DNA of 64,000 nucleotides, from positions 1 through 64,000 of the forward strand of contig JAURYL010000082.1 of assembly GCA_030653935.1 (NCBI GenBank), given 5' to 3'. A model generated the notes under the pieces. The model was given only the letters and a program-made list of their open reading frames with translations, was not told where the DNA came from and did not search any database. This document shows, one piece after another, positions 51,682 to 62,141 of the stretch. The translations under genes and the position numbers were made by a program. The stretch's first letter is position 1; each line of letters begins with the position of its first letter. The DNA is from Pseudomonadota bacterium (lineage in GTDB: Bacteria; Pseudomonadota; Gammaproteobacteria; Burkholderiales; Thiobacillaceae).

Positions 51682-52578
51682 TTACGCGCCGCGCAGATTG
51701 CGCAAATGGTCGTGGTAGCGGGCGCGATAGAGCAGGCGGCGATGATCGGGATGATCACTGAAGCCGGAGCGGGTGTGCGGGATGTTGTTGCAGATCACGC
51801 CCATGCCCGGTTGCAGGCCGAGGGTGAAGCGGCCGGGAGGGTTGCCGGCGAGGAGTTCTTCCAGGGCGCGCACGGCGGCCAGGGTGGCGGCATCCTGTTT
51901 CCAGGCGATGCTCTTGGTGCGGGCGGTGTAGCGTAGATGCAGGAGGCCGCCGTCCACGAGAAAGGCGGGACCGGTTTCGTCGGGGCGTGCCACGCCCAAT
52001 TCGTCGGTGCGCGCCGGGATGGTCATGGCGTCTTCGGCCATGAAGGCGCGGATATGCATCGGATCGCTATCGCGCAGGGCGATATAGGCCAGTTCGTGGT
52101 CGTACAGGTCGTTGATGCCGCCTTCATCGGCGGCGCGCACGCAATGCAGGGTCATCGCCCAGATGCGCCGCTCGGGTGGGTTGTAGTAGCCGTCGGTATG
52201 CCAGCGGATAGGCTTGTGGGTGTAGGGGATGAATTCGCCACGTTTCTGGCCGTCTTCATCGTGCGGGGTGAGACTGGTGATGCCGTCCTCGTCCGCCAGC
52301 CAGTTGGCGTCCAGGCGATTCAGGCCGAATTGCGCGGCGAGGCGGCTGATCGACACCTTGTCTTCGGTTTCGCCCAGATCGGTGGCGTAGATCGCCATAT
52401 TGGTCTTGGCAATGAGCCGCCAGATAGCCTGGTATTCGTCATCACTCAGGTTCGCGGGGTCGCGCACCTTGACGATGAGGTCTTCGCCGCGCGTCGGGTA
52501 ATCCGCCAACTTGGCGGCGCGCCAGGCCTGGTAGCCGGCTTCGTTGTCGGGGTGGAAGGGGGAGTCGGTGGGGATCAT
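51682..52578 (-). CDS. TauD/TfdA-family Fe(II)/2-oxoglutarate dioxygenase
   Basis: The 298-residue protein has the family iron-binding triad: HTD in IRWHTDGYY (about 125-133) and the distal His in NNIPHTRSGFSD (about 260-271), with a 2-oxoglutarate Arg in RRLLYRARYHD. TauD-type enzymes hydroxylate taurine or other small molecules; the substrate here is unknown. It is the last gene of the minus-strand set that ends at the divergent dsr operon, after sseA and a 194-residue unknown, which suggests a link to sulfur metabolism. A heptanucleotide repeat array occupies its leader directly before the ATG. Confidence 0.85.
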   Translation of the reverse strand: MIPTDSPFHPDNEAGYQAWRAAKLADYPTRGEDLIVKVRDPANLSDDEYQAIWRLIAKTNMAIYATDLGETEDKVSISRLAAQFGLNRLDANWLADEDGITSLTPHDEDGQKRGEFIPYTHKPIRWHTDGYYNPPERRIWAMTLHCVRAADEGGINDLYDHELAYIALRDSDPMHIRAFMAEDAMTIPARTDELGVARPDETGPAFLVDGGLLHLRYTARTKSIAWKQDAATLAAVRALEELLAGNPPGRFTLGLQPGMGVICNNIPHTRSGFSDHPDHRRLLYRARYHDHLRNLRGA

Positions 52579-52648: not shown

Positions 52649-53233
52649 TTACTCTTTGCTCTCTGCTGGATAAAACCCGTCCATGTTTTTCTTCACCATG
52701 CTCTGCATCTCGGGCATTTCGATTTCCATGATCTGGTCCTGGATCCAGGTCTGGTCGGATTGCTCCATGATTTCGCGGATTTGCAGGGAGAGGAAGCGTA
52801 GCGCGGGGAAGCTGGCTTGCTCGTCGGGGAAGTCGAAGGCCGCGTAATCGCCCATGCGCCGATTGGTCAGGTCGATGAATCCGGCCTGGTAATCGTAATC
52901 CGGGTCTTTCTCGCCGCCGGTGGTTTCGATGATGTTTTCTTCCATGATCTCGGCCAGGCGCACGCCTACCGCGCTGACCACGTCCTGGCGCAGTTCGTCA
53001 TCCATGCGGTTGAAGGCCAGGCGATCGACGTAGTGGACCAAGAAGCAGGCCATTTCGCCGATGATGCGAAAGCCGCGTTGCGGCGTGATGATGTCGAAAT
53101 CGGCCTTCGACAGGTTGTCGATGGTGCGGTCGCACAGGCGCCAGATGGTGGAGGCGAGGACGGTAGCGACTTCGGAAGGATCGCGCTGTTCGCCTTCCTT
53201 CTTGAACCAGACGGTTTTGACTCTGAGTGCCAA
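52649..53233 (-). CDS. Conserved protein of unknown function, dsr-linked
   Basis: The 194-residue soluble, acidic, mostly helical protein has no signal peptide or membrane segment. I recognise no family. It starts with a TTG at 53233, chosen because GGAG lies 7 nt upstream and the codon follows the sseA TAA directly; the longer frame overlaps sseA. Features are ALRVKTVWFKKEGEQRDP, IIGEMACFLVHYVDRLAFNRMDDELRQDVV (a candidate interaction helix) and a Met-rich C-terminus (EIEMPEMQSMVKKNMDGFY). Its tight coupling to sseA and the downstream dioxygenase suggests a shared role near sulfur oxidation. Confidence 0.7.
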   Translation of the reverse strand: MALRVKTVWFKKEGEQRDPSEVATVLASTIWRLCDRTIDNLSKADFDIITPQRGFRIIGEMACFLVHYVDRLAFNRMDDELRQDVVSAVGVRLAEIMEENIIETTGGEKDPDYDYQAGFIDLTNRRMGDYAAFDFPDEQASFPALRFLSLQIREIMEQSDQTWIQDQIMEIEMPEMQSMVKKNMDGFYPAESKE

Positions 53234-53235
53234 GG

Positions 53236-54084
53236 TTATTCTCCGGTGGCGATGGGCCTGGCGGGATCGCGTATCCACTCGCTCCAGGAGCCGGGATAGA
53301 GGCGCGAGCCGGCAAGACCGGCGACTTCCATCGCCAGCAGGTTGTGGCAGGCGGTGACGCCGGAGCCGCAGGAATGGATGACCTGCCAGGGCGCGCGGCC
53401 TTTCAGTAAAGCCTGATAGTTTTCACGCAGCGCTTCCGGCGGCAGGAAGGTGCCGTCGATGTCGAGGTTCTCGTCGAATGGCCAGTTGATGGAACCAGGA
53501 ATGTGGCCGGCAACCGGGTCGAGCGGTTCGAATTCACCGCTGAAACGACGGTCCGGGCGCGCGTCGATGATCAGGGCGTCGCCGGTTTGCGAAGCGCGCA
53601 GAACCTCGTTCGCATCGACGACCTGGCTATGCTCTGGTAGGCAGGCGCAGTTGCCCTTGCGGGGTTGCGGTAGCTCGGCGGTCAGCGGTCGTTTTTCCTT
53701 GCGCCACTTCGGCATGCCGCCGTCGAGCAGGGCGACACCAGGGTGGCCGAGCCAGCGCAGCATCCACCACAGACGCACGGCCATCGCGCCGTAGCTGTCG
53801 TCGTACACGACAACCTGTTTGTTGACGCCGACGCCCCAGGCACAGAGCCGTTCCGCCAGAGTGCGGACATCTGGTAGCGGGTGGCGGCCAGTTTCGTCGG
53901 TAACCGGCGCGGACATGTCTTCATCGAGATGAACGTAGCGTGCGCCGGGAAGGTGATCTTTGAGGTAAGCCTGACGCCCGGCTTCCGGATCGGTCAGGGT
54001 GAAGCGACAGTCGAAGACGATCCAGTTGGGGTCGTCGATATGCGCTGCCAGGTCTTCAGTGGTAACCAGGGTGTTGATGAACAT
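53236..54084 (-). CDS. sseA: Sulfurtransferase SseA (two-domain rhodanese)
   Basis: The 282-residue protein has two rhodanese domains. The N-terminal one (about 5-130) lacks the catalytic Cys, and the C-terminal one (about 155-282) has Cys239 in the active loop HSCGSGVTACHN, the CGSGVTA form typical of SseA/mercaptopyruvate sulfurtransferases. Other blocks are IVFDCRF, GARYVHLDEDMSAP, DDSYGAMAVRLWWML, LLDGGMPKW and DARPDRRFSGE. It could supply persulfide sulfur to the DsrEFH/DsrC relay encoded divergently. It precedes the 194-residue unknown with no gap; a repeat-rich 86 bp separates it from the DsrC paralogue. Confidence 0.93.
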   Translation of the reverse strand: MFINTLVTTEDLAAHIDDPNWIVFDCRFTLTDPEAGRQAYLKDHLPGARYVHLDEDMSAPVTDETGRHPLPDVRTLAERLCAWGVGVNKQVVVYDDSYGAMAVRLWWMLRWLGHPGVALLDGGMPKWRKEKRPLTAELPQPRKGNCACLPEHSQVVDANEVLRASQTGDALIIDARPDRRFSGEFEPLDPVAGHIPGSINWPFDENLDIDGTFLPPEALRENYQALLKGRAPWQVIHSCGSGVTACHNLLAMEVAGLAGSRLYPGSWSEWIRDPARPIATGE

Positions 54085-54170: not shown

Positions 54171-54503
54171 TTAGTAACCGCCCTTGCCGAAGGGCTTGGT
54201 CAGGCCGGCCACCTTGGCGGACTGGCGGTTGGGTTGCAGGGGGAATAGTTCATACAGTACTTTTTTCCAGTCGACGCTGTCGTCCTCGTCGATAAGGTCG
54301 GCGAGCATATTGCGGAAATTGGGGGTCTGGCCGTCTTCCTGGTATTTGCGTCGCATGAAATTAACGACCTGCCAGTGCGCGTCGGTCAGGGTGATGTTTT
54401 CAGCCGCGGCGATCACGGGAACGATTTCTTCGCTGAAGTTTGCTTCCAGCAGGAAACCATCGTCATCCACCTCGAGTTCTTCGCCGTTCAGTACATAGCC
54501 CAC
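54171..54503 (-). CDS. DsrC/TusE-family protein lacking the C-terminal cysteines (RspA type)
   Basis: The 110-residue protein aligns along its length with DsrC: DDDGFLLEANFSEEI, ITLTDAHWQVVNFMRRKYQEDGQTP, LYELFPLQPNRQSAKVAGLTKP. The C-terminal arm ends FGKGGY where DsrC has TGCI, and there is no upstream Cys either, so neither sulfur-carrying cysteine exists. In the DsrC family such cysteine-free members are called RspA and are thought to be regulatory. Translation starts at a GTG with AGGAG upstream. It competes or cooperates with DsrC (59388) only by inference. A terminator separates it from the Cas6-like gene. Confidence 0.88.
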   Translation of the reverse strand: MGYVLNGEELEVDDDGFLLEANFSEEIVPVIAAAENITLTDAHWQVVNFMRRKYQEDGQTPNFRNMLADLIDEDDSVDWKKVLYELFPLQPNRQSAKVAGLTKPFGKGGY

Positions 54504-54527: not shown

Positions 54528-54560
54528 AAAAATATGGCCGTCCGGAATTCAGACGGTCGA
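54528..54560 (-). terminator. Terminator after the Cas6-like gene
   Basis: On the minus strand CCGTC, a loop and GACGG are followed by CCATATTTTTTT. The left stem arm overlaps the stop codon of the Cas6-like gene. It separates the 80-aa/Cas6-like pair from the DsrC paralogue. Confidence 0.7.
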
Positions 54561-55202
54561 AACTTCCTTGATCGATTTGTGCGGTATGAAAATACCGCAG
54601 CCCCAGTGTCTGTATAGACCCAGGCCTTGCTCCTGCACGGCCAGCGAATGTAGCAGACTGAGGTCATGCAACATCAGCGTGTGGCCGCTGATCTCTCCAT
54701 CCGGGGTGCGCATTTTACGATGCAACCCGGGGATCAGTCCGCATTGAACGCCCATTTCATCCAGTTGACCGCGCACTTTGTCGAGAATGGTCGCCTCATC
54801 CGCGCCGCCCAGAGACACGCAGTGCGAGTACAGCGTGCCAAATGGCGTCAGGTTCTTCTCTTTCAAGTCACCAATGTTCAGAACACCGGCCCCGGGGTCG
54901 ATCTGCTTGCCCACCAGCGCGCGCGCGTCATCCAGGCGGCCGACCGGAAGCCGCAGGACCAGCTTCACCCGTCGATTGATCACCAGATTGTCATTGCGTC
55001 CGCTCGGCGCGCCATGGACCGGATGGATGCCGGCCTCGGGGGTGTCGGCCAGCCACGGCAGGTGGCGGAGCAATTCAGCGTAGAGCGCGGGGCCATGGTC
55101 GGCCGGAATTTCTCCTCCCGACAAGTCGTAGAGCAGGTCCAGCATTTTCGGCGTGAACTTCATGTCTTTCACTGCGTCCCATTCCGGGTTGTACATGCGC
55201 AT
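54549..55202 (-). CDS. Standalone Cas6/Cmx6-like protein in the dsr locus
   Basis: The 217-residue protein resembles the Cas6 subtype Cmx6 (CRISPR-RNA endoribonuclease family): GGEIPADHGPALYAELLRHLPWL, AGIHPVHGAPSG, NRRVKLVLRLPVGRL, FGTLYSHCVSLG, LIPGLHRKM, SGHTLMLHDLSLLHSLAVQEQGLG and the glycine-rich C-terminal GCGIFIPHKSI. No CRISPR array and no other cas gene are in the window. It starts 4 bp after the 80-residue gene and ends in a terminator. I infer RNA binding or cleavage from the fold only. The association with dsr suggests a non-defence role; whether this link is documented I cannot check. Confidence 0.68.
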   Translation of the reverse strand: MRMYNPEWDAVKDMKFTPKMLDLLYDLSGGEIPADHGPALYAELLRHLPWLADTPEAGIHPVHGAPSGRNDNLVINRRVKLVLRLPVGRLDDARALVGKQIDPGAGVLNIGDLKEKNLTPFGTLYSHCVSLGGADEATILDKVRGQLDEMGVQCGLIPGLHRKMRTPDGEISGHTLMLHDLSLLHSLAVQEQGLGLYRHWGCGIFIPHKSIKEVSTV

Positions 55203-55449: not shown

Positions 55450-55725
55450 GGGGTGTTAGTATATTCCAATACGTTGATTAACTGACAATCGCAGTCAGGT
55501 ATTAACGTTTCAATTGGGATCCGGGATGTGGTACACAACCTACCCGATCGGGTAGGTTGTGTACTACCCGACTGACATGGATGGTTACCCCCTCGGGATG
55601 ATGGTGACCTGGATAAGCGCTCGCTAATATGTAAAGACTCGTCCCGTACGGGCGGACTGCCAACGGGTAAGTGCGATGAGTTTGTGACGACACGGTGTTG
55701 TTTAAGACTTCAAGGAGAAAGACGG
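55450..55725. promoter_or_regulatory. Divergent control region between dsrA and the accessory set
   Basis: The 276-bp region has no gene. It holds a perfect 34-bp palindrome (55531-55564), a smaller hairpin CTGACAATCGCAGTCAG (about 55482-55498), the palindrome CCCGTACGGG near 55645, and the dsrA ribosome site AAGGAG near 55711. Promoters for both directions must lie here. I cannot place a convincing sigma70 pair for dsrA. Confidence 0.75.
55531..55564. promoter_or_regulatory. Perfect 34-bp palindrome (candidate operator)
   Basis: Each arm is GTACACAACCTACCCGA followed by its exact complement. It lies 162 bp upstream of dsrA and 81 bp upstream of the 80-residue gene. A third TACCCGA copy follows at 55565-55571. 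It is not followed by a T-run, so it is not a terminator. Confidence 0.85.
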
Positions 55726-57027
55726 ATGGCTAAGCAAATGATTGATACGCCGAACCTGGACGAACTCGAGACTGGCCCCTGGCCCTCGTTCGTTACAGGT
55801 CTGAAGCGCCTGGCTAAAGACAACGACATGATGGTCGACCTGATGGGTCAACTGGAGACTTCCTACAGGACCCGCTTCGGCTACTGGAAGGGCGGCACCG
55901 TTGGTGTGGTGGGTTACGGCGGCGGCGTGATTCCCCGTTTCACCGAACTGAAAGATGAAAACCACAAGCCCCTGTTCCCCGAGGCGGCCGAGTTCCATAC
56001 CCTGCGCATCATGCCGCCCGCCGGCATGCACTACTCCTCCGACCTGCTGCGTCAAATGTCCGATGCCTGGCTGGAAACCGGTGGTTCCGGCCTGATTGCC
56101 TTCCACGGCCAGTCCGGCGACATCATGCTGCAAGGCATCAAGACCAACGACGTGCAGCGCGCCTTCGACAAGTTCAATGAAATGGGCTTCGACCTCGGTG
56201 GTGCCGGCCCCGCGCTGCGCACCTCCATGTCCTGTGTTGGCGCCGCGCGTTGTGAAATGTCCTGTTTCGATGAGGCTCGCGCGCTGCGCATCGTCATCAA
56301 CAACAACCTGGACGACATGCACCGTCCTTCGCTGCCGTACAAGTTCAAGTTCAAGTTCTCCGGCTGCCCGAACGACTGTATGAACTCCATCCAGCGTTCC
56401 GACATGGCGACCATCGGCACCTGGCGCGACAACATCCGCGCCGACGAGAAACTGGCGCGTGACTGGTATGCCGCTCACAGCCTGGAAGACACCATCAACA
56501 TGGTGGTCAATCATTGTCCGACCAAGGCCATTCAGCTCAAGAAGAACGATGGCGCGGTTGCCGCCGAAGGCGTCACCAAGGTTGTGTTGTCCGACGACAA
56601 CTGCCTGGAAATCGATAACCACAACTGCGTGCGCTGCATGCACTGCCTGAATGTCATGCCCGGCGCGCTGCTGCCTGGCAAGGACAAGGGCGTCACCATT
56701 CTGGTTGGTGGCAAGAGTGTGCTGAAGATCGGTGCCACCATGGGTACCGTGGTGATTCCGTTCATGAAGCTCGAGTCCGACGAGGACTTCGAGAAGCTGA
56801 ACGATCTGTCCCGCTCCATGCTCGACTTCTTCGCGGAAAACGCGCTGGAGCATGAGCGTACCGGCGAGATGATCGAGCGTATCGGCCTGGTCAACTTCCT
56901 GGAAGGCATCGAGCTGGAAGTCGATCCCAACATGATCAACTCCCCGCGCTCCAACCCCTATGCCCGTATGGATGGCTGGGACGAGGAAGCCGCCAAGTGG
57001 TTCGAGCGCAAGCAGGCTGCCGCGTAA
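55726..57027 (+). CDS. dsrA: Reverse-type dissimilatory sulfite reductase alpha subunit
   Basis: DsrA with DsrB forms the sirohaem enzyme that, in sulfur oxidisers, converts DsrC-bound sulfur to sulfite in the cytoplasm. The 433-residue protein has the sirohaem-[4Fe-4S] cysteines Cys170-x5-Cys176 and Cys214-x3-Cys218 (SCVGAARC and SGCPNDC), an additional Cys180, and an inserted ferredoxin domain with CVRCMHCLNVMPGAL. The ATG at 55726 has AAGGAG 9 nt upstream; an earlier in-frame start lacks a site. Neighbouring dsrEFH and dsrL place it in the oxidising group. Confidence 0.98.
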   Translation: MAKQMIDTPNLDELETGPWPSFVTGLKRLAKDNDMMVDLMGQLETSYRTRFGYWKGGTVGVVGYGGGVIPRFTELKDENHKPLFPEAAEFHTLRIMPPAGMHYSSDLLRQMSDAWLETGGSGLIAFHGQSGDIMLQGIKTNDVQRAFDKFNEMGFDLGGAGPALRTSMSCVGAARCEMSCFDEARALRIVINNNLDDMHRPSLPYKFKFKFSGCPNDCMNSIQRSDMATIGTWRDNIRADEKLARDWYAAHSLEDTINMVVNHCPTKAIQLKKNDGAVAAEGVTKVVLSDDNCLEIDNHNCVRCMHCLNVMPGALLPGKDKGVTILVGGKSVLKIGATMGTVVIPFMKLESDEDFEKLNDLSRSMLDFFAENALEHERTGEMIERIGLVNFLEGIELEVDPNMINSPRSNPYARMDGWDEEAAKWFERKQAAA

Positions 57028-57066: not shown

Positions 57067-57109
57067 AAAATTGTCGCAGGTTTAACGATTTCACCCTTTG
57101 GAGATAGCA

Positions 57110-58183
57110 ATGGCTGAAAGGACTCACCAGACCATTGAATCCGGTGCACCGGATCCGATGCCCTACATGCACCCCGTCATGAAAGAGAACTATGGGAAGT
57201 GGGTGTTCCACTCGCATCCCAAGCCGGGCGTGCTCTACCATCGTGCCGAGAGCGGCGCCGAAGTCTGGACCGTCAAGGCGGGCACCCAGCGGCAGATGGA
57301 CCACTACACCATTCGCAAGCTGGCCGACATCGCCGACCAGTACGCCGACGGCTACGTGCGCTTTACCACACGTTCCAATATCGAATACATGGTGACTGAC
57401 CAGGCCAAGGTCGAGCCCCTGATCTCCGCGCTGAGCGAAGGTGGCTTCCCGGTCGGTGGTACCGCCAACTCGGTTTCCATGATCGCTCATACCCAGGGCT
57501 GGCTGCATTGCGACATCCCCGGTACCGACGCCTCCGGCGCGGTCAAGGCGCTGATGGACGAGCTTTATGAAGAGTTCATCAAGTGCGAGATGCCTAACCG
57601 CGTCAAGCTGTCCACTTCCTGTTGCGAAATCAACTGTGGTGGCCAGGCTGACATCGCCATCGTCATCCAGCACACCAAGCCGCCGAAGATCAATCACGAT
57701 CTGGTCGCCAACGTCTGCGAGCGTCCCTCCGTGGTTGCCCGTTGCCCCGTTGCCGCGATTCGTCCCGCGCTGATTAACGGCAAGCCGTCCCTGGAAGTCG
57801 ACGAGAAGAAGTGCATCTGTTGTGGCGCCTGCTTCCCCCCGTGCCCCCCGATGCAGATCAACGACCCCGAGCATTCCAAGTTCGCGATCTGGGTTGGCGG
57901 CAAGAACTCCAACGCACGTTCCAAGCCGACCTTCCACAAGCTGGTTGCCGCCGGTATCCCGAACAACCCGCCGCGTTGGCCCGAGGTCAGCGAAGTCGTC
58001 AAGAAGATCCTTGCCGTCTACAAGGCCGATGGTCGTCCGTGGGAACGCATGAACGACTGGATCGACCGTATCGGTTGGCCCGCCTTCTTCGAGAAGACCG
58101 GCCTGCCGTTCACCAAGTATCACATCGACAACTGGCGTGGTTCCCGTACCACTCTGAACGCTTCCACGCATATCCGTTTCTAA
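57110..58183 (+). CDS. dsrB: Reverse-type dissimilatory sulfite reductase beta subunit
   Basis: The 357-residue partner of DsrA completes the alpha2beta2 enzyme; the functional sirohaem sits mostly with DsrB residues. It has STSCCEINCGGQADIAIV (CC-x-x-x-C) and a C-rich ferredoxin region CICCGACFPPCPPM near 240, plus FTTRSNIEYMVTD and GWLHCDIPGTDASG. The ATG at 57110 has GGAG 7 nt upstream. It is 82 bp after dsrA and 76 bp before dsrE, with hairpins in both gaps. Confidence 0.98.
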   Translation: MAERTHQTIESGAPDPMPYMHPVMKENYGKWVFHSHPKPGVLYHRAESGAEVWTVKAGTQRQMDHYTIRKLADIADQYADGYVRFTTRSNIEYMVTDQAKVEPLISALSEGGFPVGGTANSVSMIAHTQGWLHCDIPGTDASGAVKALMDELYEEFIKCEMPNRVKLSTSCCEINCGGQADIAIVIQHTKPPKINHDLVANVCERPSVVARCPVAAIRPALINGKPSLEVDEKKCICCGACFPPCPPMQINDPEHSKFAIWVGGKNSNARSKPTFHKLVAAGIPNNPPRWPEVSEVVKKILAVYKADGRPWERMNDWIDRIGWPAFFEKTGLPFTKYHIDNWRGSRTTLNASTHIRF

Positions 58184-58259: not shown

Positions 58260-58652
58260 ATGAAGATCGGTATATTAGTAAGCGAAGGGCCTTATACCCA
58301 TCAGGCCTCCGATACCGCCTACAACTTCGTGAAGGCGGCCATCGAAAAGGGACACGAGATCTACCGTGTTTTCTTCTACCACGACGGTGTCAACAACGCG
58401 ACGCGCTTGACCGAGCCACCGCGTGACGATCGCAATATCGTCAATCGCTGGAGCGAGTTGGCCAAGCAGCACAACCTTGATCTGGTGGTGTGTATTGCCG
58501 CCGCTCAACGGCGCGGCATCATGGACGAGAACGAAGCCAAACGGCAGGGCAAGAATGCGGACAACCTCGCTGAGGGGTTCCGGATTTCCGGTCTGGGACA
58601 GTTGGTGGAAGCTGGCATCCAATGTGATCGTCTCGTGACTTTCGGCGATTAA
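58260..58652 (+). CDS. dsrE: Sulfur-relay protein DsrE
   Basis: DsrE is the sulfur-carrying subunit of the cytoplasmic DsrE2F2H2 complex. The 130-residue protein has the carrier Cys78 in LVVCIAAAQRRG, at the position known for DsrE of purple sulfur bacteria, and starts MKIGILVSEGPYTHQ. DsrEFH exchanges sulfur with DsrC and marks the oxidising type of dsr cluster. dsrF follows after 11 bp. Confidence 0.97.
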   Translation: MKIGILVSEGPYTHQASDTAYNFVKAAIEKGHEIYRVFFYHDGVNNATRLTEPPRDDRNIVNRWSELAKQHNLDLVVCIAAAQRRGIMDENEAKRQGKNADNLAEGFRISGLGQLVEAGIQCDRLVTFGD

Positions 58653-58663
58653 GGGAGATAGCG

Positions 58664-59053
58664 ATGACTGATGAAATGATGGATGAAGAAGGCGTCATCA
58701 AGAAGTTCATGTTCGTGAACCGCAAGGCGCCTTACGGCACGATTTACGCGCTGGAAGGCCTGGAGGTCGTGCTGATCTCCGCCGCTTTCGAGCAGGATGT
58801 CAGCCTGGCGTTTGTGGATGATGGTGTTTATGAACTGAAGAAGACTCAGGATACCAAGGCGCTGGGCCAGAAGAATTTCTCGCCGACCTACCGTGCCCTT
58901 GAGGGTTACGACATCGAGAAACTCTATGTCGAGCGCGAATCGATGGAAATGCGTGGCCTGACCGAGGACGATCTGCTGGTGGACGTGCAGGTGGTTTCCT
59001 CTGCGGAAATGGCTGACCTCATGGCCGAGCAAGACGTCGTGATCAGCTTCTAA
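58664..59053 (+). CDS. dsrF: Sulfur-relay protein DsrF
   Basis: The 129-residue DsrE-like fold protein has MFVNRKAPYGTIYALEGLEVVLISAAFEQDVSLAFVDDGVY as its core and no cysteine, as expected for DsrF, a structural subunit of the DsrEFH hexamer. It lies 11 bp after dsrE and 13 bp before dsrH. Confidence 0.96.
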   Translation: MTDEMMDEEGVIKKFMFVNRKAPYGTIYALEGLEVVLISAAFEQDVSLAFVDDGVYELKKTQDTKALGQKNFSPTYRALEGYDIEKLYVERESMEMRGLTEDDLLVDVQVVSSAEMADLMAEQDVVISF

Positions 59054-59387: not shown

Positions 59388-59723
59388 ATGCCTATGGTTG
59401 AAGTTGCCGGCAAATCATTTGAAGTCGACGAGGAAGGCTACCTGACCAATCTGGCCGATTGGAACCAGGACATCGCCGGATATCTGGCTCAGGAAGAAAA
59501 AGTTGAAATGACCGACTCCCATTGGGAAGTGGTCAACTTTCTGCGCGAGTACTACGAGGAGTACCAGATCGCCCCCGCCGTCCGCGTGCTGACCAAAGCC
59601 ATCTCCAAGAAGTTGGGCGCCGACAAGGGCAACAACAAGTACCTGTACGAGTTGTTCCCCTACGGTCCCGCCAAGCAGGCTTGCAAGATCGCTGGTCTGC
59701 CGAAGCCGACCGGCTGTATCTGA
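59388..59723 (+). CDS. dsrC: Sulfur-carrier protein DsrC
   Basis: DsrC carries sulfur from DsrEFH to DsrAB as a persulfide or trisulfide. The 111-residue protein has both conserved C-terminal cysteines, Cys99 and Cys110 (AKQACKIAGLPKPTGCI), on the flexible arm. Its core motifs are DEEGYLTN and WEVVNFLREYYEEYQIAP. It differs from the cysteine-less paralogue at 54171-54503. A ribosome site AAGGAG precedes the ATG. A hairpin pair follows before dsrM. Confidence 0.98.
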   Translation: MPMVEVAGKSFEVDEEGYLTNLADWNQDIAGYLAQEEKVEMTDSHWEVVNFLREYYEEYQIAPAVRVLTKAISKKLGADKGNNKYLYELFPYGPAKQACKIAGLPKPTGCI

Positions 59724-59760: not shown

Positions 59761-59834
59761 GTTCACAAGAGTTCTGTTCGGATTCTGGGTAACCCGGAAT
59801 GTGATTGTTTGATCTGCCTGAAGCAGAGGAACGG

Positions 59835-60566
59835 ATGACTTCGCTGACGCTTATTTATACTGGCCTGTACTACTTCGCCGCAATCGTGCTGATTGCCGGT
59901 GTGGCCTATCGCATAGTCGAGTACAGCCGCACCCCGGCGCCTCTCAAAATTCCCACGACGCCCGCGCCCACGACCGGTGCCGGTGTTGCGATGCGCATGG
60001 CACGTGAAGTCGTGCTGTTCGAATCGCTGTTCAAATCCAACAAATGGATCTGGGTGTTCGGCTGGATGTTCCATGTCGGTCTCGCCCTCGTCCTGTTGCG
60101 CCATGTGCGCTATTTTCAGGAACCGATGTGGTTCGTGATCGAGTTCGTGCAGCCCTACGGTACCTATGCCAGCTTCATGATGGTGGCCGGCCTGCTCGGG
60201 CTGTGGGCACGTCGATTCCTGGTTGACCGTGTTCGTTACATCTCCACGCCCTCGGACCATTTGATGCTGGCGCTGTTGGTCGCAATCGGTGTCTCCGGAA
60301 TGATGATGACCTTCGTCTCTCATACCGACATCGTCGCGCTCAAGGCGTTTACCCTTGGCTTGGTGACCTTCGACTGGCAGCCGCTACCCAGTGATGGCCC
60401 GTTGCTGGTGCATCTGGCTTTGGTCGCGCTGCTGATGATCATCTTCCCGATCAGCAAATTACTGCATGCGCCGGGCATCTTCTTCAGCCCGACCCGTAAT
60501 CAGGTAGATAACCCGCGTGAAACCCGCTCGATCGCCCCCTGGGCGGCGGCGGCGGAACGCAAGTAA
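59835..60566 (+). CDS. dsrM: DsrM, membrane cytochrome b of the DsrMKJOP complex
   Basis: The 243-residue protein is NarI-like, with about five membrane helices (about 8-25, 75-95, 105-130, 155-175, 200-220) and His residues in WMFHVGLALVLLRHVRYF and FVSHTDIVAL suited to b-type haem binding. DsrM takes or gives quinone-pool electrons together with DsrK. The start at 59835 has AGGA 6 nt upstream. Confidence 0.95.
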   Translation: MTSLTLIYTGLYYFAAIVLIAGVAYRIVEYSRTPAPLKIPTTPAPTTGAGVAMRMAREVVLFESLFKSNKWIWVFGWMFHVGLALVLLRHVRYFQEPMWFVIEFVQPYGTYASFMMVAGLLGLWARRFLVDRVRYISTPSDHLMLALLVAIGVSGMMMTFVSHTDIVALKAFTLGLVTFDWQPLPSDGPLLVHLALVALLMIIFPISKLLHAPGIFFSPTRNQVDNPRETRSIAPWAAAAERK

Positions 60567-60617: not shown

Positions 60618-62141
60618 GTGGCCGTTCCTGAATTCGAAGTACCCAAGCTGACGGAATACACCGAGGTTCCCAAGATCAACCCCGGGGTGATGGCGCACGT
60701 CAAGACCTTTCCGGCCGCCGAGGCCAGTCAGACTTTCCTGGGCTATCCCTGGGCGCTGACCGATGACTGGCAGGAGCGCGCCATCGACAAGATGGGTGAC
60801 TTGCTGGGCAAGTACCGCAGCCTGCGGGTGTTCATGGATGCCTGCGTGCATTGCGGCGCCTGTACCGACAAATGCCATTATTTCCTTGGCACCGCCGACC
60901 CGAAGAACATGCCGGTCGCGCGCCAGGACTTGATGCGCCAGGTCTACCGTCGCTATTTCACCATTCCCGGCAAGATCGCCCCGTGGCTGGTGGGCGCCAA
61001 GGACCTCAGCAAGGAAATCCTGGACGACTGGTACAACTACTACCATCAGTGCTCCGAGTGCCGTCGCTGCTCCGTCTATTGCCCCTATGGCATCGACACC
61101 GCCGAAGTCACCATGGCCGGCCGCGAGATACTCAATACCATCGGTATGGGCCAGAAGTATTCCAGCGAGATTCTGACCAAGGTGCAGAAGATCGGTAACA
61201 ACCTCGGCCTGCCCGGGCCCGCGCTGGAAGACACGCTGCTGGGCCTCGAGGAGGATATCGAACTGGATACCGGCGTACCGGTCAAGATTCCGCTCGACGT
61301 CAAGGGCTCGGAAATCCTGCTGGTTACCCCGTCGGCCGACTTCTTCTCGGAACCACATGTGGAATCCCTGATCGGCTACGCCAAGGTCTTCCACGCCGCC
61401 GGCGCTTCCTGGACCCTGTCCACGCATGCCTCCGAGGCGGGTAACTTCGGCCTGTTCAACGGTAATTACGAAACCATGCGCAAGGTTGCCATGCGGATTC
61501 GTGACGCTGCGCTGGAACTTGGCGTCAAGCGCATCATCGTCGGCGAGTGCGGCCATGCCTGGCGCGTTGCATACAGTTTCTGGAATACCCTCACGGGTAT
61601 CGGCTTTGGGGGTAACGATCCGTTCTCGATCGAGCTGCAACAGCAACTGGACCACCGCTACAAGCAGCCCATGCATATTTGCGAATACACCTGGGACCTG
61701 ATCCAGAAGGGCACGCTCAAATTCGACAAGTCACTGAACGACGACCGTGTCATTACTTTCCATGATTCCTGCAACGTGGCTCGTGGTTCCCGCATGGGCG
61801 AGGAGCCGGGTGATCAGTTCACCATTCCGCGTAACGTCATCATGGCCGTGGCCAACAATTTCCACGACATGGCGCCGGAAACAATCGGTGAAGGCACTTT
61901 CTGTTGCGGTGGCGGCGGCGGTGTGCTGACCGATGACCTGATCGAAGTGCGCGTCAAGGGCGCTTTGCCGCGGATGAATGCTTTCAACAACGTGGTTCAG
62001 GCTGATGGCGTCAACTTCCTGGCCCTGATCTGCGCGATCTGCAAGGCGCAATTCACCAAGGTTATCCCGTATTACGGTTTCGACCGGAGCATGGTCGGCG
62101 GCGTGCATCAGCTCGTCAGCACGGCCATCAAGCTGGACTGA
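60618..62141 (+). CDS. dsrK: DsrK, HdrD-like iron-sulfur subunit
   Basis: The 507-residue protein is the cytoplasmic catalytic subunit that interacts with DsrC. It has two [4Fe-4S] motifs, Cys76, 79, 82, 86 (CVHCGACTDKC) and Cys145, 148, 151, 155 (CSECRRCSVYC), and C-terminal CCG domains with CGHAWR and Cys429-Cys430 (CCGGGGGVL), the non-cubane-cluster type of HdrB/HdrD. Translation starts at a GTG at 60618 with AAGGAG upstream. Confidence 0.97.
   Translation: MAVPEFEVPKLTEYTEVPKINPGVMAHVKTFPAAEASQTFLGYPWALTDDWQERAIDKMGDLLGKYRSLRVFMDACVHCGACTDKCHYFLGTADPKNMPVARQDLMRQVYRRYFTIPGKIAPWLVGAKDLSKEILDDWYNYYHQCSECRRCSVYCPYGIDTAEVTMAGREILNTIGMGQKYSSEILTKVQKIGNNLGLPGPALEDTLLGLEEDIELDTGVPVKIPLDVKGSEILLVTPSADFFSEPHVESLIGYAKVFHAAGASWTLSTHASEAGNFGLFNGNYETMRKVAMRIRDAALELGVKRIIVGECGHAWRVAYSFWNTLTGIGFGGNDPFSIELQQQLDHRYKQPMHICEYTWDLIQKGTLKFDKSLNDDRVITFHDSCNVARGSRMGEEPGDQFTIPRNVIMAVANNFHDMAPETIGEGTFCCGGGGGVLTDDLIEVRVKGALPRMNAFNNVVQADGVNFLALICAICKAQFTKVIPYYGFDRSMVGGVHQLVSTAIKLD

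Follow-up and report, generated by a model that had tools for sequence, protein, structure and literature searches.

A Cas6-family protein accompanies the reverse-Dsr sulfur-oxidation genes of Gammaproteobacteria independently of CRISPR loci

The window analyzed here, a stretch of 64,000 nucleotides at the start of contig JAURYL010000082.1 from a Thiobacillaceae genome (assembly GCA_030653935.1), encodes a protein that is a member of the Cas6 family and not part of a CRISPR system. By its constant company with dsrAB, the gene belongs to the dsr sulfur-oxidation gene group, and the same association recurs across Gammaproteobacteria, including the beta lineages. The Dsr route of sulfur oxidation has been studied extensively as a chemolithotrophic pathway, and our observations point to an RNA-based step in it. 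The explanation that we prefer, and to which we give an even chance of being right, is that an exapted Cas6, together with a DsrC-family protein of the RspA type, binds, and in most cases cleaves, an RNA of the reverse-Dsr pathway and in this way tunes Dsr.

The protein matches the Pfam Cas6 family PF09559 with 172.9 bits (cut-off 26.7, E 9.8e-51) and the NCBIfam model TIGR02807 (cas6_cmx6) with 142.7 bits, above the equivalog cut-off of 98.85, and it is also matched by six PADLOC Cas6 models. Its solved relative 8fcj_B, a Cas6 from a type I-B CAST, is recovered at E 6e-16 from the single sequence and at 2e-33 from a 46-sequence profile. We modeled the structure with AlphaFold2 using 22 sequences (pLDDT 86.9, pTM 0.82), and the model aligns to 8fcj_B with Z 26.5 and an rmsd of 2.0 across 198 residues at 28% identity; other Cas6 structures rank next in the fold search (Z 15.6-17.3), which speaks for the listed families only. 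The predicted structure has the tandem ferredoxin-like fold of Cas6 proteins. Chance resemblance is excluded as an explanation of the Cas6 identity. The initial annotation had recognized a Cas6-type protein with the C-terminal ending given in Table 1 and had proposed comparing its predicted structure with Cas6; Pfam, NCBIfam and the modeled fold all bear this out.

Table 1. Features of the cas6-dsr locus, in positions of the window.
Feature	Position	Strand	Basis and remarks	Presence in beta loci
TauD-family dioxygenase	51682..52578	-	Pfam	67/79
p209, conserved protein	52649..53278	-	no Pfam or NCBIfam match	76/79
Rhodanese, 3-mercaptopyruvate sulfurtransferase-like	53236..54084	-	Pfam; under NCBIfam cut-off	54/79
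Cysteine-less DsrC-family protein (RspA type)	54171..54503	-	PF04358; tail GKGGY; immediately downstream of cas6	
Cas6/Cmx6-family protein, 217 aa	54549..55202	-	ATG start, TGA stop; C-terminus GCGIFIPHKSIKEVSTV	
DUF6967 protein, 80 aa	55207..55449	-	Pfam; immediately upstream of cas6	71/79
Inverted repeat, 40 bp, 19/20 pairs	55528..55567	.	core CCTACCCGATCGGGTAGG; between the divergent genes; DNA-operator-like	
TAATAT box	55625..55630	+	-10-like (a guess); kept upstream of dsrA in near relatives	
Possible dsrA leader stem, CCCGT...ACGGG	55643..55667	+	near relatives only	
dsrA	55726..57027	+	NCBIfam; ATG at 55726; divergent from cas6 gene group	
dsrB	57098..58183	+	NCBIfam	
dsrE	58260..58652	+	Pfam and NCBIfam	
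dsrF	58664..59053	+	Pfam and NCBIfam	
dsrC of the operon	59388..59723	+	named from position and synteny; homologs with two-cysteine tails	
dsrM	59805..60566	+	named from position and synteny	
dsrK	60618..62141	+	named from position and synteny	

The gene order of the locus is given in Table 1. The 80-aa companion gene that had been noted beside cas6 encodes the DUF6967 protein, and the divergence from dsrA described with it is likewise confirmed. The dsrE and dsrF products match the NCBIfam models of TusD and TusC, respectively. Two further ORFs, o62369 and o62828, which served as queries in our alignment scripts, probably lie antisense to dsrL, a gene that exceeds the window. This genome also has a solitary second dsrA (G000:C5:8200-9450, locus L196), and so do seven other genomes (L200, L204-L209); no dsrB or other dsr-operon match lies beside these solitary copies within the fetched stretches.

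We compared the locus with 79 loci from the beta lineages, 57 from the order sample (found with the family model) and 22 from named contigs (found with the window protein); these hold 76 distinct proteins, so some genomes are counted twice. In all 79, cas6 is divergent from dsrA, with a gap of less than 800 bp in 76, and a DsrC-family match is present in every one. Forty gamma loci were fetched from 76 carriers (the 30 best-scoring and 10 chosen). The fetched stretch includes dsrA in 31 of them; as read from the locus tables, the two genes diverge in every one of these, and a TauD gene stands between them in 26. For the remaining nine, dsrA falls outside the fetched stretch, and in two of these loci (L157, L173) the contig ends on that side. 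The examination of homolog neighborhoods that the initial annotation had called for therefore establishes the linkage of cas6 to dsr across beta- and gammaproteobacteria. In 34 of the 40 gamma loci, the gene for a 64-aa protein lies near cas6 and on its strand (for example L195 10210-10404 and L161 9753-9944); the two examples scanned had no Pfam match, and relatives of this protein occur in Cas6-free dsr loci outside the class (L210, L212-L214).

The association also holds at the level of genome content. Among the 300 genomes of the order sample, which includes the genome studied here, PF09559 was found in 58 and dsrA (strong match, E < 1e-80) in 64. All 58 Cas6 carriers have dsrA, and six more dsrA-positive genomes are without Cas6, the contig ending at dsrA in two and the locus being intact in four. 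The class sample (369 genomes) contained 117 dsrA-positive genomes, our own among them, and Cas6 is present in 109 of the other 116 (76/80 and 33/36), with a single match in each carrier except G920, where there are two pieces. Taking the order and class samples together, more than nine tenths of the dsrA-positive genomes examined from the class encode Cas6 (167 of 180). Even five genomes as small as 1.0-1.1 Mb (G705, G803, G911, G941, G1003) retain the gene. In the phylum sample, Cas6 was found in 5 of 398 genomes, all of them from the order of the window's genome and all dsrA-positive, and PF09559 was absent from 48 dsrA-positive genomes outside that order (dsrA was counted in 396 genomes, treated as the same draw as the 398 since the handles agree). 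The bond of Cas6 is thus with Dsr of the class, rather than with Dsr everywhere. Many of the genomes are drafts, so that single absences of Cas6 may be gaps. The Cas6-free dsrA-positive genomes (the 48 outside the order, 7 of 116 gammas and the four intact beta loci) show that Dsr as such functions without Cas6.

The homologs are not found mainly beside CRISPR arrays. The 119 dsr-Cas6 loci from Pseudomonadota (2.15 Mb scanned, overlaps included), which lie near dsr or away from arrays, yielded no CRISPR-like array; run on nine CRISPR stretches, the same script recovered arrays from four (L058, L059, L124, L125). Among 80 Cas6 carriers (57 betas and 23 chosen gammas, drafts included), 52 gave no Cas1 match. 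The original description of a standalone Cas6 unlinked to CRISPR is upheld by these counts. It had also stated that the window contains neither an array nor another cas gene: no CRISPR-like array was found in the window, and the statement on cas genes holds for the nine further ORFs that were scanned near cas6. The Cas1 genes of this genome are on contigs other than that of the window. None of the components by which a type I-MYXAN locus is recognized (cas3, cas8, cas7, cas5 or an array) lies beside cas6, where the neighbors are dsr-group genes.

The same genome encodes, on other contigs, two CRISPR systems, each with an array: one of type I-C with Cas5c, the processing enzyme in type I-C, and one of type III-A that has its own, distinct Cas6 (L059 12713-13732). 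Since both systems have their own processing enzymes, neither needs the window gene, and crRNA processing for its own genome is rejected as the role of the protein. Neither of the two outcomes that the initial annotation had named as refuting its view, homologs mainly beside arrays or a matching CRISPR system elsewhere in the genome, was obtained. Processing of crRNA in trans for arrays elsewhere is, more generally, very hard to credit: the family does include the Cas6 of type I-MYXAN operons and the genome does hold two arrays, but those arrays belong to the two systems just described, and the many carriers without a Cas1 match and the array-free loci argue against such a service. The III-A locus contains two adjacent Cas1 genes (L059 14316-16318), one of which is a diverged variant.

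On plasmids the Cas6 family has seven hits, all cyanobacterial, and six of them lie within type I-MYXAN cas operons. On a Gloeobacter plasmid (L121 5974-8546), a Cas6/Cmx6 gene is the sole annotated cas gene within 6 kb and sits in a gene run that includes a PAPS-reductase-family protein and a cupin; this is perhaps another Cas6 turned to other use. No phage record matched Cas6, and of seven pattern matches in viral contigs none was confirmed. We reconstructed a phylogeny with a quick method from 78 of 124 sequences (62% identity cut), which leaves many forks open. One branch splits the seven cyanobacterial plasmid copies from the dsr copies (SH-aLRT 99), and the betas are nested among the gammas at weakly supported forks. 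The outgroup consists of those seven plasmid copies, L121 included, and the order of CRISPR use and dsr use is undecidable from this tree.

DsrC carries sulfur on its C-terminal cysteines. The DsrC-family protein encoded next to cas6 in the window, which the initial annotation had left unmentioned, matches PF04358 with 100.7 bits and contains no cysteine at all. For such cysteine-less proteins we use the name RspA, which we take to be that of Venceslau et al. 2014. In a survey of 60 loci, the DsrC-family tails beside cas6 were cysteine-free in 48 of 51 and ended in KGGY in 50 of 51; the other DsrC-family tails in the same stretches kept two cysteines in 48 of 56. Under a strict definition of the partner (K or R followed by GGY, same strand, at most 1.6 kb from cas6), 108 of 119 Cas6 copies are accompanied (78/79 beta, 30/40 gamma) and 11 fail, the sole beta exception ending in KAGY. 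Conversely, no RspA-type tail was found in the eight informative Cas6-free dsr stretches (L197, L199, L202, L203, L210, L212-L214), all of which retain DUF6967, TauD or the 64-aa protein; the DsrC-family gene of L199 has an ordinary cysteine. This joint absence was judged within the fetched dsr stretches, leaving out L198, L201 and L211 as too short on the relevant side. Taken together, the pairing counts and the joint absence suggest that Cas6 and its partner have mostly been gained and lost together. DUF6967 persists beside dsrA in Cas6-free loci (L197, L199, L202, L203, L210, L213, L214), and it seems for this reason to be part of the dsr group rather than of the Cas6 group.

Two features of the protein are shared by almost all relatives, whether dsr-linked or CRISPR-linked. 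The C-terminal glycine-rich loop G193-F205 (G193, G195, G201, G203, F205) is near-universal, and Arg84 is present in 124 of 124 proteins. This pattern suggests selection for RNA binding. R78, E136, H208 and K209 are typical of the dsr copies, as is their conserved tail PHK. H36 is found in 40/40 gamma, 59/77 beta and 7/7 plasmid proteins, and H60 in 38/40 gamma, 55/77 beta and none of the plasmid proteins; judging from this conservation, H36 is a putative catalytic residue, and H60 is putatively one too. Of the 77 beta proteins, 13 have neither histidine (Tyr36 in 12 of these), and their genes are still placed beside dsr. Comparison of the window gene with four near relatives gave dN/dS values of 0.09-0.15, which shows that it is under purifying selection. 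The residue pattern and the dN/dS values are consistent with selected RNA binding, cleavage being usual yet dispensable.

The retention of the gene where both histidines are gone, the conserved dsr-typical tail and the regular pairing with RspA would also suit an RNA-independent scaffold or regulator, in which the Cas6 fold binds RspA or a Dsr protein. We consider this unlikely, as the invariant Arg84 and the near-universal glycine loop suggest that it is RNA binding that has been selected.

Under the explanation that we prefer, a Cas6 would have split from CRISPR immunity and joined the reverse-Dsr pathway as a standing partner across Gammaproteobacteria, including the beta lineages. Going by the conserved residues, Arg84 and the glycine-rich loop would serve to bind RNA; proteins that retain the histidines may also cut it at a hairpin, as other Cas6 proteins do. 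Cas6 and RspA, with its DsrC profile and without the sulfur-carrying cysteines, would set the level of a dsr or other sulfur-pathway transcript post-transcriptionally, a dsr transcript being the most likely target, and the outcome would be that the Dsr machinery tracks sulfur supply. The beta group without histidines would act through binding alone. We propose, tentatively and with slightly less than even confidence, that Cas6 and RspA may associate physically as a dedicated ribonucleoprotein regulator of reverse-Dsr across gammaproteobacterial sulfur oxidizers, those with reduced genomes included, and that catalysis has been lost again in some binding-only betas.

The intergenic region was examined for elements related to this proposal. 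The core of the inverted repeat is unique in the 3.8-Mb genome, also when one mismatch is allowed, and the palindrome is common to the dsrA upstream regions of near relatives, and chiefly of those. It was considered as an RNA substrate and rejected: its core aligns on both strands, it lies upstream of TAATAT and it is spread mainly among near relatives, which makes a DNA operator likelier, and the palindrome is a likely operator for a regulator. A scan for consensus promoters found none in the TAATAT region, and the assignment of this box as a -10 element therefore remains a guess. A second inverted repeat is located near the start of the DUF6967 gene, in the gap between the cas6 group and dsrA.

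The dsrA leaders, with identical ones counted once, show no more predicted structure where cas6 is adjacent: the median z is -0.37 for 106 leaders beside cas6 and -0.17 for 18 without it (p 0.87). Values below -2 were obtained for 3 of 106 and 3 of 18, respectively, so that strongly structured leaders are, if anything, commoner without Cas6. In several gamma and non-gamma loci the rule for the dsrA start fell inside the gene, and those rows test coding sequence. A structured dsrA leader was rejected as a general substrate, the stem being confined to near relatives and no general signal being present. The stretch behind cas6 is unstructured as well (115 loci, median z 0.11). Alignment folding of the gene gaps in 24 near-relative loci, with sufficient sequences for 12 of the 13 gaps, placed the p80-dsrA and dsrK-downstream gaps far below column shuffles on both strands and the dsrF-dsrC gap somewhat below (z -3.1), with none of the remaining gaps standing out; column shuffles destroy gap patterns, and these z-scores therefore carry little weight. 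An Rfam scan of five sources (the window and four loci) returned only tRNA: a distant one in the window and another in L066. Across 60 loci, cas6 has no constant tRNA neighbor; 15 of them contain at least one tRNA gene, of various kinds and mostly kilobases off. The most frequent, tRNA-Ser(tga), is found kilobases away from cas6 in six of the 60 loci (L072, L159, L163, L167, L179, L192), which is probably a chance neighborhood.

These results bear on two other roles for the protein. Cas6 proteins are hairpin nucleases with a narrow substrate choice, and this, together with H36 in all 40 gammas, would fit a Cas6 that processes a small RNA of its own, encoded away from cas6, in the manner of a CRISPR-derived regulatory RNA. 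The Rfam result for the window and the four loci and the lack of a structure signal in the leaders and behind cas6 speak against such an RNA, and we regard it as improbable. The other role would have Cas6 bind a tRNA or its precursor while a TusE-like RspA docks on DsrEFH, linking sulfur flux to tRNA 2-thiolation. Passages of PMC3397948 describe DsrEFH and DsrC as similar to TusBCD and TusE of the tRNA-thiolation relay, and such a role would agree with the TusD and TusC matches of dsrE and dsrF and with the DsrC/TusE family of the partner. It is, in our estimation, quite improbable too, given the inconstant tRNA genes and a partner without the cysteine that such a relay uses. The initial annotation had proposed a functional link with dsr from position, perhaps through thiolated tRNA or dsr mRNA. 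The link now extends well beyond position, through the linkage in betas and gammas and the independence from CRISPR; the particular RNA is as yet unsupported, as there is neither a general structure in the leaders or behind cas6 nor a constant tRNA gene.

If the preferred explanation is true, a Cas protein serves central metabolism, a crRNA-processing nuclease having been recruited into core energy metabolism, and sulfur oxidation is under RNA-level control. At minimum, the CRISPR-derived database names of dsr-linked copies need correcting. To our knowledge, Cas6 is not counted among the dsr genes in published dsr gene sets, and we know of no pairing of RspA with Cas6 in print. We found no Cas6-dsr link in the titles, abstracts and some passages of the open-access literature: in these parts, the papers combining cas6, dsrAB and sulfur oxidation concern CRISPR systems or gene lists, without a dsr link; those on Cmx6 are unrelated, going by their titles; a search on RspA returned nothing on the subject; and a word search of PMC11406059 and PMC10504309 returned no mention of CRISPR or cas6. 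The link is perhaps undiscussed in the literature found because annotation names Cas6 a CRISPR protein, TIGR02807 being an "equivalog" model. The seven cyanobacterial plasmid relatives are annotated with a CRISPR GO term.

In comparison with known systems, the window protein is like the Cas6/Cmx6 of type I-MYXAN in its matches to TIGR02807 and PF09559 above cut-off and in H36, R84 and the glycine loop, which are common to both. The dsr copies differ in having no nearby cas operon or array, in carrying R78, E136, H208 and K209, and in falling on the other side of the tree. Plain identity does not separate the two groups, the window protein being 24-27% identical to I-MYXAN relatives and 26-31% identical to gamma dsr copies. 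The type I-B CAST protein 8fcj_B has the same fold but belongs to a transposon's Cascade complex, and no such genes were found at the window locus. The partner resembles RspA-type DsrC-family proteins, as it likewise belongs to PF04358 and is without C-terminal cysteines. Finally, the cluster of Allochromatium vinosum is reportedly dsrABEFHCMKLJOPN, and the window has a like order of dsrAB, E, F, C, M and K.
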